Shown here in pieces: positions 16,649 to 19,580 of a stretch of 21,945 nt of DNA. Source of the DNA: a virus. The translations under genes and the position numbers were made by a program. The stretch is taken from the IMG/VR virus record IMGVR_UViG_3300042465_002491, positions 1 through 21,945 of that record. One strand, 5' to 3'. Each line of letters opens with the position of its first letter. Positions within the stretch are counted from its first letter, which is position 1. The notes beneath the pieces are model-generated. The model had not been told where the DNA came from and ran no database searches. It saw nothing but the letters and a program-made list of their open reading frames with translations.

Positions 16649-16765
16649 ATGAAACTCCCTGAAATCCTCGTGAATCCTCCGGCATGGCTGGCAATCCCCT
16701 TGTGCGCTTTCCTCGGCGCGTCTTACATTGCAATCTTGATCGTTCTGAAAAACATCATTCATTGA
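16649..16765 (+). CDS. Tiny single-helix membrane protein (38 aa)
   Basis: The protein starts MKLPEILVNPPAW and continues with a hydrophobic helix of about 24 residues (LAIPLCAFLGASYIAILIVL), then KNIIH. It has one transmembrane helix and a basic C-terminal end. The leader is A-rich (AATAAAACGAAA), like the other starts in this operon, and the stop is 25 nt before the next gene. It may act on the host membrane, for example in lysis or superinfection control, but no function can be assigned. It is real by leader and spacing, though short. Confidence 0.6.
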   Translation: MKLPEILVNPPAWLAIPLCAFLGASYIAILIVLKNIIH

Positions 16766-16790
16766 ATCCACAAACCAATACCTAGAAAAC

Positions 16791-17147
16791 ATGAAAACTA
16801 CATTGACCACTTCACAAGCCGCCCACGAACTTCTGAACGATCCCGACGCATCTTGGACCTATTCCGGAGCGCACGCGATTGTTGAATACCTCGAAGAGCT
16901 TGAAAACGACACCGGAACAGAAGTGGAATTTGACCGTGTTTCCATTCGTTGTGATTTTTCGGAATACGACGATTTGATCTCTTGGTCTGATTCCTACTTT
17001 GGAAGCCATGAGAAAACCTTGGAAGAGTTCGGCTTCACTCCTGAAAGTTTTGAAGTGGATGAAGTGCTTGAAAAGATCCGCGAGTTTATCGAGTGCCACG
17101 GTGTTTTGATTGAACACTCGACCGGAATCATTGTTTCCAGCTTCTAA
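16791..17147 (+). CDS. Acidic small phage protein (unknown function)
   Basis: This 118-residue, very acidic protein contains the segment AIVEYLEELENDTGTEVEFD followed by VSIRCDFSEYDD. I recognise this pattern from small hypothetical proteins in phages and plasmids, whose role I do not know. The high negative charge would fit a DNA mimic or a protein inhibitor, but that is only a possibility. The leader CCTAGAAAAC precedes ATG. The next gene begins 6 nt after the stop, so it is operonic. No cysteine or metal motif is clear apart from two isolated Cys. Confidence 0.8.
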   Translation: MKTTLTTSQAAHELLNDPDASWTYSGAHAIVEYLEELENDTGTEVEFDRVSIRCDFSEYDDLISWSDSYFGSHEKTLEEFGFTPESFEVDEVLEKIREFIECHGVLIEHSTGIIVSSF

Positions 17148-17153
17148 CCCATC

Positions 17154-17417
17154 ATGACCATCCAACCGTTTGCCCCCATGAACTTAGAAACTAAATCAAT
17201 CTCAGAAATCGCCGCCATCATCCGCAAAGACTGGAAGAAAGTAAATTATGCCGCGAAGCCGTATCTTGAGGCCATGGGATCGCTTAACAGCGTCAAGAGT
17301 TCCCTCGGCTATGACACGGGAAAAACCGTCGTCCTTTATTTCCTAAGCAATGCCGCGTCATGGCGGGGAGAGACTGCCAAGGCCGTAAAGCTGGAACTTA
17401 AAAACAGAACCAAGTGA
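17154..17417 (+). CDS. Small conserved-type phage protein (unknown function)
   Basis: This 87-residue basic, helical protein contains AAIIRKDWKKVNYAAKPYLE and VVLYFLSNAASWRGETAKAV. This layout is known to me from small proteins of phages and mobile elements with no assigned function. The first ATG (17154) lies 6 nt after the previous stop; an in-frame ATG at 17178 (MNLETKSISEIA) is an alternative that begins at the conserved part. The next gene starts 4 nt after the stop. It is a member of the same short-gene operon as its neighbours. Confidence 0.78.
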   Translation: MTIQPFAPMNLETKSISEIAAIIRKDWKKVNYAAKPYLEAMGSLNSVKSSLGYDTGKTVVLYFLSNAASWRGETAKAVKLELKNRTK

Positions 17418-17421
17418 ACCA

Positions 17422-17667
17422 ATGGAAACAAAGCCGGCTTATACTTACAACGCAAACGAACCCATCCCCTACGAGGAAACTTGCCGAAAGGTCAAAGCAT
17501 GGTCAAAACGTTTGCAAGCTCGCACTGGTCGGCAAGTCTATTATGCCGTCAAAACTAGCAAGGTGGAAATTTACCATAGTGGTATCGACACGAAATCTCA
17601 CAATAAAGCCGTTGAGTCACTCGCGCGGATACTAGGCAAGATACAATTAATTTCCCATACGCGCTAA
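17422..17667 (+). CDS. Small basic hypothetical protein
   Basis: This 81-residue Lys/Arg-rich protein begins METKPAYTYNANEPIPYEE and contains CRKVKAWSKRLQARTGRQVY, probably a helix-strand arrangement that could bind nucleic acid. No family is recognised. It starts 4 nt after the preceding stop. Its own stop lies 2 nt before a hammerhead ribozyme, so its mRNA would end in the ribozyme's 5' cleavage product. Confidence 0.72.
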   Translation: METKPAYTYNANEPIPYEETCRKVKAWSKRLQARTGRQVYYAVKTSKVEIYHSGIDTKSHNKAVESLARILGKIQLISHTR

Positions 17668-17669
17668 AA

Positions 17670-17719
17670 AGTCGAAACGCCTTCGGGCGTCGTCGGATCA
17701 TGTCCGGCCTGACGAGACT
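17670..17719 (+). ncRNA. Type-II hammerhead ribozyme 1 (intercistronic)
   Basis: Reading 5' to 3': AGUC (stem II, 17670-17673), GAAA core with A15.1 at 17677, stem III ACGCC-UUCG-GGCGU (17677-17690), cleavage nucleotide C17 at 17691, stem I GUCGGA-UCAUG-UCCGGC (17692-17708), the invariant CUGACGA (17709-17715), and GACU (17716-17719) closing stem II. Every catalytic-core nucleotide of the hammerhead is present, with ends open at stem II (type II). Predicted cleavage is between 17691 and 17692. It lies 2 nt after a stop codon and 26 nt before the next start, so it would separate the upstream genes from the 238-residue gene. Confidence 0.92.
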
Positions 17720-17745
17720 ATCAGAAATTCAAACAAAACGAAAAA

Positions 17746-18462
17746 ATGAAACTATTAAATAGCGGTAACGCGAAAACACGTAAAGGCGAAAAGCGCGGAT
17801 TCATCACGTATGGAATCCACCTAGCACCGTCCAATCTGTCAGGCTTTAACGTCTGCAAGGATGCAAGCAAGGGATGCGCGGCGGCTTGTTTGAACACTGC
17901 GGGACGTGGTGCCATGTCATCGGTCCAAAAAGCTCGAATTGAGAAAACCCATTTGTTTTTCACGGACAAAACTTGTTTCCTCGGGATGCTTTGGGATGAA
18001 GTGGAAAGCGCCATTCGTTCAGCGACCAGAAAAAACATGACGCCTTGTTTTCGCCTCAATCTAACCTCAGATCTGCCATGGGAAAAGATCAAGTTTCGAG
18101 GGTCGAATATTTTCGATTCATTCCAAGGCGTTCAGTGGTACGACTATACAAAAAGTGAGGAAAGAGCGTGCAATTTCGCTGCGGGTCTACTTCCAAGCAA
18201 TTATTGGCTAACCTATTCACGAAGCGAAGTTTCAACACGTCTAGAATTGGTCGCGATGCTTCAGTCCCAAGTCAATGTCGCAATTGTTTTTGCCGACAAG
18301 CTTCCGCTTAAATGGGAGGGATTCCAAGTTATTGACGGCGATTCTGACGATTTGAGATTTCTTGACCGTCGTGGCGTCGTGGTGGGCCTGAAAGCCAAGG
18401 GCAAAGGCAAGATCGATTCCACAGGCTTTGTCTTGCAACCGGATGGATTGCTTCACGCATGA
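17746..18462 (+). CDS. Cysteine-motif phage protein (GP88/DUF-type, unknown function)
   Basis: This 238-residue protein begins MKLLNSGNAKTRKGEKRG and has a cysteine cluster C37-x6-C44-x3-C48 (VCKDASKGCAAACLNTAGRG). Further motifs are FRLNLTSDLPWE (102-113), WYDYTK (131-136), DGDSDDLRFLD (197-207) and VVVGLKAKGKG. I know this family from many phages and mobile elements; it resembles gene-product-88-type proteins. The Cys cluster and alternating strand/helix pattern would fit a metal or Fe-S binding barrel, but the spacing is not the radical-SAM CX3CX2C and no activity is known to me. The leader is A-rich (CAAAACGAAAAA). It is translated downstream of the ribozyme cut. Confidence 0.8.
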   Translation: MKLLNSGNAKTRKGEKRGFITYGIHLAPSNLSGFNVCKDASKGCAAACLNTAGRGAMSSVQKARIEKTHLFFTDKTCFLGMLWDEVESAIRSATRKNMTPCFRLNLTSDLPWEKIKFRGSNIFDSFQGVQWYDYTKSEERACNFAAGLLPSNYWLTYSRSEVSTRLELVAMLQSQVNVAIVFADKLPLKWEGFQVIDGDSDDLRFLDRRGVVVGLKAKGKGKIDSTGFVLQPDGLLHA

Positions 18463-18987: not shown

Positions 18988-19263
18988 TCAATCTTCTGGT
19001 TTGATCTGCCACTTCTCCAATCGATCTGCCAATGCCCTTAGTTGAATAATTGTTTCGTTTGCTTCGTCCACATGGCAGGCGCATGAATCTGTAGCACACC
19101 TGAATAGTTTGCTCCAAGGTATTACAAGTTGCTCCTCGTCGTACTTGAAGAAACGGCCATCAACATAGAGCATTGGCTTGATCCCGTCCTTGTCAAAGAA
19201 CAGCGGAGTGTCATCGCAGAATGAGAGTTCTACTTCTTTTGTTTTCGTCATTTTCATTTTCAT
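18988..19263 (-). CDS. Small hypothetical protein with a Cys-rich loop
   Basis: This 91-residue protein begins MKMKMTKTKEVELSF, with three in-frame ATGs within five codons; I chose the first. It contains a strand-rich middle (MLYVDGRFFKYDEEQLVIPW), a short CATDSCACH cluster that might bind metal, and a C-terminal amphipathic helix. No family is recognised. The start lies 22 nt after hammerhead ribozyme 2, so its mRNA would begin at the ribozyme cut. It is the last gene before the terminator at 18925-18959. A longer frame upstream overlaps the previous gene and is unlikely. Confidence 0.72.
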   Translation of the reverse strand: MKMKMTKTKEVELSFCDDTPLFFDKDGIKPMLYVDGRFFKYDEEQLVIPWSKLFRCATDSCACHVDEANETIIQLRALADRLEKWQIKPED

Positions 19264-19285
19264 ATTATTGTCAGTTGGTTGATTT

Positions 19286-19335
19286 GATCTCGTCAGTACT
19301 GGAATTACCAGCAGACCACTCTCGTGGTTTCGATC
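19286..19335 (-). ncRNA. Type-II hammerhead ribozyme 2 (intercistronic)
   Basis: On the minus strand: GAUC (stem II, 19335-19332), GAAA with A15.1 at 19328, stem III ACCAC-GAGA-GUGGU (19328-19315), cleavage nucleotide C17 at 19314, stem I UGCUGG-UAAUU-CCAGUA (19313-19297), invariant CUGACGA (19296-19290), and GAUC (19289-19286) closing stem II. Predicted cleavage is between 19314 and 19313. All helices differ in sequence from ribozyme 1 but pair fully, which is covariation. It begins 2 nt after the stop at 19338 and ends 22 nt before the next start. Confidence 0.92.
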
Positions 19336-19337
19336 TT

Positions 19338-19580
19338 TCAAACGTAGGTTTCCCAGCTTCCACCGTAGTAGGTACGTTCCGTCATTCCTAGTTCCTGCCT
19401 TGCGATGTTGATGCGCTCCTGAGCCATGCTGCTGCGGGACTTGAAGTAATCCATCGTGTTGGACTCGCTCCATGCCGCAAAATCACTGCACCACCGTGTG
19501 AACCTCCACTGGTGGCCGACTGGGTACATTCCTGATACGCGGTTTTTTGCTAGGCTGATTGCTGCTTCTTTTGTTTTCAT
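19338..19580 (-). CDS. Small hypothetical protein
   Basis: This 80-residue protein starts MKTKEAAISLAKNRVSGMYP at the ATG at 19580, preceded by ACAATACACAC. This start avoids a long overlap with the upstream gene that the full open frame (to 19706) would need. It is Arg/Ser/Trp-rich with a segment WRFTRWCSDFAAWSES and a helical C-terminal half. No family is recognised. Its stop is 2 nt from ribozyme 2. It is the middle gene of a three-gene operon. Confidence 0.7.
   Translation of the reverse strand: MKTKEAAISLAKNRVSGMYPVGHQWRFTRWCSDFAAWSESNTMDYFKSRSSMAQERINIARQELGMTERTYYGGSWETYV

Follow-up and report, generated by a model that had tools for sequence, protein, structure and literature searches.

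Two putative type II hammerhead ribozymes of a compact phage subclass lie just behind stop codons in a viral DNA stretch

The DNA analyzed here is a 21,945-nt stretch of the IMG/VR virus record IMGVR_UViG_3300042465_002491 (the window), which has no detectable DNA similarity to named phages. Its rightward (plus-strand) operon carries three small genes of 118 aa (16791-17147; phrog_9974, unknown function), 87 aa (17154-17417; phrog_13953, unknown function) and 81 aa (17422-17667), followed by the gene for a 238-aa GP88 family protein (17746-18462; PF17338, phrog_1617), for which a sequence search found no solved relative. A 38-aa open reading frame with a hydrophobic stretch (16649-16766, plus strand) opens this gene run, so that perhaps four small genes, not three, precede the element described below. 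Two sequences in the window, which is part of a tailed-phage genome, read as type II hammerhead ribozymes. The first, HH1 (17670-17719, plus strand), is intergenic, as the preliminary description of the window had placed it, and separates the 81-aa gene from the GP88 gene. The second, HH2 (19286-19335, minus strand), sits in the leftward, replication-side operon between genes of 80 aa (19338-19580, minus strand) and 91 aa (18988-19263, minus strand), downstream of a DnaB-like helicase gene and a replication O-like gene. Gene starts in the window (for example, 17720-17745 and 19264-19285) are A-rich and have no Shine-Dalgarno sequence; one is present in 89 of 162 cases at other hammerhead-bearing loci.

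Read directly from the sequence, HH1 has the layout AGUC-GAA-ACGCCUUCGGGCGU-C-GUCGGAUCAUGUCCGGC-CUGACGA-GACU. The preliminary description had claimed a full hammerhead core and three helices with the ends open at stem II, and every one of these elements can be located. Stem II (4 bp) is formed by AGUC at 17670-17673 and GACU at 17716-17719 and is open, whereas stems I and III are closed, which is the type II topology. GAAA occupies 17674-17677. It is followed by the 5-bp stem III hairpin (17677-17690), in which ACGCC and GGCGU enclose a UUCG loop (cUUCGg), and by C17 (H17 = C) at 17691. The stem I hairpin (17692-17708) pairs GUCGGA with UCCGGC over 6 bp around a UCAUG loop, also appears in the predicted fold of the 3′ cleavage product, and leads into CUGACGA at 17709-17715. 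The invariant core (CUGACGA, GAAA, U17690 and C17691) is thus complete. Cleavage would be expected after C17, between 17691 and 17692, and the earlier prediction of this site agrees with the position of C17 relative to the core. Stem II begins 2 nt past the TAA stop codon of the 81-aa gene (17665-17667), again as first noted, and the GP88 gene starts 26 nt past the end of stem II.

HH2, which the preliminary description had missed, has the same architecture on the opposite strand. Its stem II pairs GAUC at 19335-19332 with GAUC at 19289-19286; between them lie GAA (19331-19329), stem III (19328-19315), C17 (19314, with expected cleavage at 19314/19313), stem I (19313-19297) and CUGACGA (19296-19290). 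The core is again complete, and stems I, II and III measure 6, 4 and 5 bp in both HH1 and HH2. HH2 also starts 2 nt past a stop codon, the TGA of the 80-aa gene (19340-19338).

A strict type II descriptor, requiring at least 6, 4 and 5 bp in stems I, II and III, matched the real window twice, at HH1 and HH2; 400 simulated windows, together 17.6 Mb of strand sequence, gave 0 matches. Descriptors for type I and type III hammerheads found none in the window or in gp88-linked loci. A covariance-model search had been proposed as a check on HH1. With a model (R1) built from 61 phage hammerheads of the subclass described below, none of them from this virus's family, HH1 scored 62.7 bits (E 2.4e-15) and HH2 63.2 bits (E 1.8e-15), and the next best match had an E value of 0.34. 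In contrast, the Rfam model RF02276 (Hammerhead_II) gave HH1 22.2 bits, under its gathering cut-off of 37 bits, and did not list HH2. Rfam at gathering threshold returned no match in the window, nor did an RF02276 search of the virus's own record. Weak sub-threshold RF02276 matches occurred in 10 of 14 control genomes, so a genome search with this model does not discriminate.

Relatives of the locus were found by searching viral contigs with the GP88 protein, without the ribozyme as a query. All five full-length GP88 relatives (89-94% identity; contigs L001-L005) carry HH1 directly before GP88, and the ribozyme pattern identified two further HH1-bearing contigs (L038 and L039). The preliminary description had made its reading depend on pairing being conserved in relatives, and it is: across eight aligned HH1 copies, variation is limited to N7, the loops of stems I and III, a single U-G/U-A wobble and two pairs of stem III whose changes are fully compensatory, these last in L001 and L038. 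The gene that precedes HH1 is the 81-, the 87- or the 118-aa one, varying by virus, while HH1 stays beside GP88. A homologue of the 87-aa gene lies directly upstream of the ribozyme in L001 and one of the 118-aa gene in L002, L038 and L039; L005 and L033 have homologues of the 81-aa gene. L038 also has a different gene behind HH1. HH2 is kept in L001, L004 and L005. Its counterpart in L002 (L002:6541-6596, minus strand) has G12 changed to U, turning GAAA into UAAA; judged by sequence, this is a probable natural inactivation, implying that cleavage there is probably dispensable.

Not every GP88 gene is preceded by a ribozyme. In L031, where the contig is cut and GP88 is 92% identical over 88 matched residues, there is none before GP88; instead, the 81-aa homologue ends in a stop codon that overlaps the start of GP88 (ATGA; L031:4960-5012). 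This arrangement suggests that the ribozyme may replace translational coupling. The more distant GP88 genes (L006-L030) likewise have no ribozyme before GP88. Upstream of these genes, reading by eye often finds a TTGACA/TATAAT-like pair that ends only approximately 7-10 nt ahead of the start codon, which suggests that these genes have a promoter of their own and leaderless transcripts.

The relatives also bear on two readings of HH1 that do not involve a ribozyme. A chance resemblance would fit the Rfam score below the cut-off, but strict matches are absent from the simulated windows, the element is conserved with compensatory changes, and an independent model recovers it at an E value of about 2e-15. 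The probability of this reading is negligible, and the sequences of the relatives already refute it. A terminator scan lists a hairpin at 17691-17676 on the minus strand which, with the T run that follows, might serve as an intrinsic terminator for leftward transcripts, the hammerhead match being secondary. However, the T run derives from AAAAA before stem II, a position occupied by CCAA in L001, L002 and L038, and what is conserved is the hammerhead core and not the T run. Already weakened by the relatives, a terminator is a very improbable explanation. We conclude that HH1 is very probably a genuine type II hammerhead ribozyme, and the interpretation given in the preliminary description is supported.

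Pattern scans with two stem II sequences returned at least 120 viral stretches each. Among the matches listed, stems I and III are present as well at 124 of 146 and 108 of 133 viral pattern sites, compared with only 13 of 124 in bacterial genomes. All loci together yield at least 358 distinct type II hammerheads. One group mostly has a 3-bp stem II and a pseudoknot between loop I and the tail, as published. A second, compact group has a 4-bp stem II, a 17-nt stem I and a U-N-A-N-G/U loop, with at least 203 members in two scans; by these sequence features, HH1 and HH2 belong to this compact subclass, which is found in many phages. Position 17 is C in 96% of its members among the matches listed. 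Some phage contigs, including L048, L086, L143 and L255, contain 7-12 hammerheads, in places nearly one per small gene. At gathering threshold, Rfam detected 0 of 37 compact members from 35 loci. In a first set, it found 0 of 16 compact members in 15 loci, compared with 15 of 27 remaining hammerheads; a second set, from a further 20 loci, gave 0 of 21, some of these 21 having been used in the R1 model.

In the compact subclass, the first base of loop I covaries with the base directly 5′ of stem II. The pair is U/A in 210 and A/U in 5 of the 215 members among the matches listed, with no other combination, and a sixth A/U case occurs in a bacterial contig. Both HH1 and HH2 have U/A, which in HH1 would join U17698 of loop I to A17669. 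Because the descriptor does not ask for this covariation, we read it as evidence that the two bases form a tertiary pair, and it points to a contact of loop I with the stem II region, as is usual in natural hammerheads, throughout the subclass. A second candidate pair, between loop base 5 and the base 3′ of stem II, was rejected, as only 26% of sequences have a standard pair there. Direct reading of HH1 found no loop I-tail pseudoknot of at least 4 bp, as no stretch of the adjacent tail AUCAGAAAUUC could pair with the loop UCAUG over 4 bp. In L003, a 5-bp loop-tail match is possible (UAUUG/CAAUA), so the pseudoknot varies within the family. The 95.7% of paired cells in the subclass alignment is a partly circular figure because members were selected by pairing. 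For this reason, we rely on the loop-flank covariation, the protein-found relatives and the position relative to stop codons, none of which was selected for.

This position follows a sharp rule that, like the subclass identity of HH1, the preliminary description had not recognized. Among the matches listed in two scans, stem II starts between -2 and +6 nt from the upstream stop codon in 98 of 146 and 99 of 149 viral cases (67%), compared with 4.6% of random positions lying within 6 nt of a stop. The next start codon is typically approximately 24 nt downstream. Compact phage genomes may explain the flush placement, at least in part. The genes downstream of phage hammerheads are diverse, with 215 clusters for 266 genes among the matches listed and no dominant family; a single shared function for them was therefore rejected.

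The minimum-energy fold of isolated HH1 forms both hairpins but not stem II (z -1.9), pairing the core CUGA (17709-17712) with a downstream UCAG (17721-17724) instead. Part of the RNA may therefore misfold, and the fold alone is weak evidence for the ribozyme. The predicted 3′ cleavage product folds with the same UCAG-CUGA pairing, raising the idea that the cut product is regulated, the UCAG-CUGA hairpin either holding the RNA in an OFF state or locking it after cleavage so that it does not religate. UCAG, one nt past stem II, is enriched in compact subclass tails (22 compared with 5.1 expected, at 14 loci) and stands at the same fixed position in 18 members; in L002, UUAG at this position could still pair with CUGA through a G-U. 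Against this, the motif is present in only about a tenth of the subclass and absent from the aligned HH1 copies of L003, L004, L038 and L039, and the 14 loci are perhaps not fully independent. We regard such regulation as improbable.

The reading we prefer is that HH1 processes mRNA. As the rightward transcript emerges, HH1 would fold and cut itself after C17691, splitting the message into an upstream mRNA that holds the 118-, 87- and 81-aa genes and a separate GP88 mRNA. Assays of hammerheads from phage-like loci showed cleavage both in vitro and in Escherichia coli (PMC3088659), and HH1 very probably cleaves itself too. In the type II layout, the cut would fall between two closed hairpins, leaving one at the new end of each product: the upstream RNA would bear a 2′,3′-cyclic phosphate behind its terminal cUUCGg stem III hairpin, and the GP88 mRNA would begin with a 5′-OH and the stem I hairpin. 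Both new ends should resist exonucleases and 5′-end-dependent decay, so that the two halves could differ in stability and translation. HH2 would act likewise in the leftward operon. Processing is the most likely role and probably the purpose of HH1; whether end protection is the benefit we consider an even question. While it terminates at the stop codon next to HH1, a ribosome would sit on GAAA and on the 5′ strand of stem II, and translation of the upstream gene might conceivably delay cleavage, although we hold this to be doubtful. Equally speculative is the wider idea that phages make general use of the compact type II hammerhead with its loop I-flank pair as a "stop-codon cutter", in which the ribosome gates folding, cleavage is coupled to upstream translation and each cistron receives its own hairpin-capped mRNA.

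An active ribozyme could also be selfish or neutral, a cassette boundary that spreads between phage genes with no benefit from cleavage. HH1 is indeed kept while its neighbors are exchanged (the upstream gene differs in L001, L002 and L003, and the downstream gene in L038), and both the diversity of downstream genes and the lost G12 of HH2 in L002 would suit such an element. On the other hand, hundreds of copies share an invariant core, as the search required, and in the relatives found by protein, which did not have to carry it, substitutions leave the structure unaffected; this implies selection for activity. Copies within one phage differ in stem sequence and so are not recent duplicates. 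We therefore consider a selfish or neutral element unlikely, and mRNA processing remains the preferred account.

Hammerheads between phage genes are already known. HH1 and HH2 share their permutation, core and intergenic, often clustered phage setting with the type II hammerheads of bacteria and phages (Perreault et al. 2011, PMC3088659; RF02276), for which processing of long phage transcripts was proposed. Those ribozymes are described as mostly having a loop I-3′ tail pseudoknot of at least 4 bp and often a short stem II. In HH1 and HH2, by contrast, stem II has 4 bp, the length of stem I is fixed at 17 nt, and a putative pairing of one loop base with one flanking base takes the place of the pseudoknot; both copies also score under the Rfam cut-off. 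Type I and type III hammerheads, known from Schistosoma, viroids and satellite RNAs, likewise bring loop I into contact with the stem II region without a pseudoknot, and a conserved reverse Hoogsteen pair has been reported for these two types (PMC6155905). Their loop I partner is a loop II base; in HH1 and HH2 the putative partner, supported by covariation, is a base flanking the open stem II. As far as the literature consulted allows, three things are new: the two copies, the rule on stop codons, and the compact subclass, which scores under the Rfam cut-off and shows the covariation of loop and flank. The supplementary figures of PMC3088659 mention non-pseudoknot contacts, so part of the compact subclass may already have been seen.

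The reason for hammerheads in bacteria and phages is acknowledged to be an open question (PMC6155905, PMC10085705). Work cited in PMC10085705 deals with hammerhead and twister ribozymes near Mu-like phage genes and reports that self-cleaving RNAs are enriched both around phage genes and around one another. Compared with the loci cited there, the position here is defined: the ribozyme runs from the stop codon, and the next start follows approximately 24 nt on. The present case offers a defined subclass with a covariation-supported contact, a model that detects it where the Rfam cut-off fails, and a sharp positional rule. It also offers natural comparisons between GP88 with the ribozyme, GP88 without it and with a stop-start overlap (L031), and a probable knock-out (HH2 of L002). 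Together, these make the mRNA-processing idea testable.
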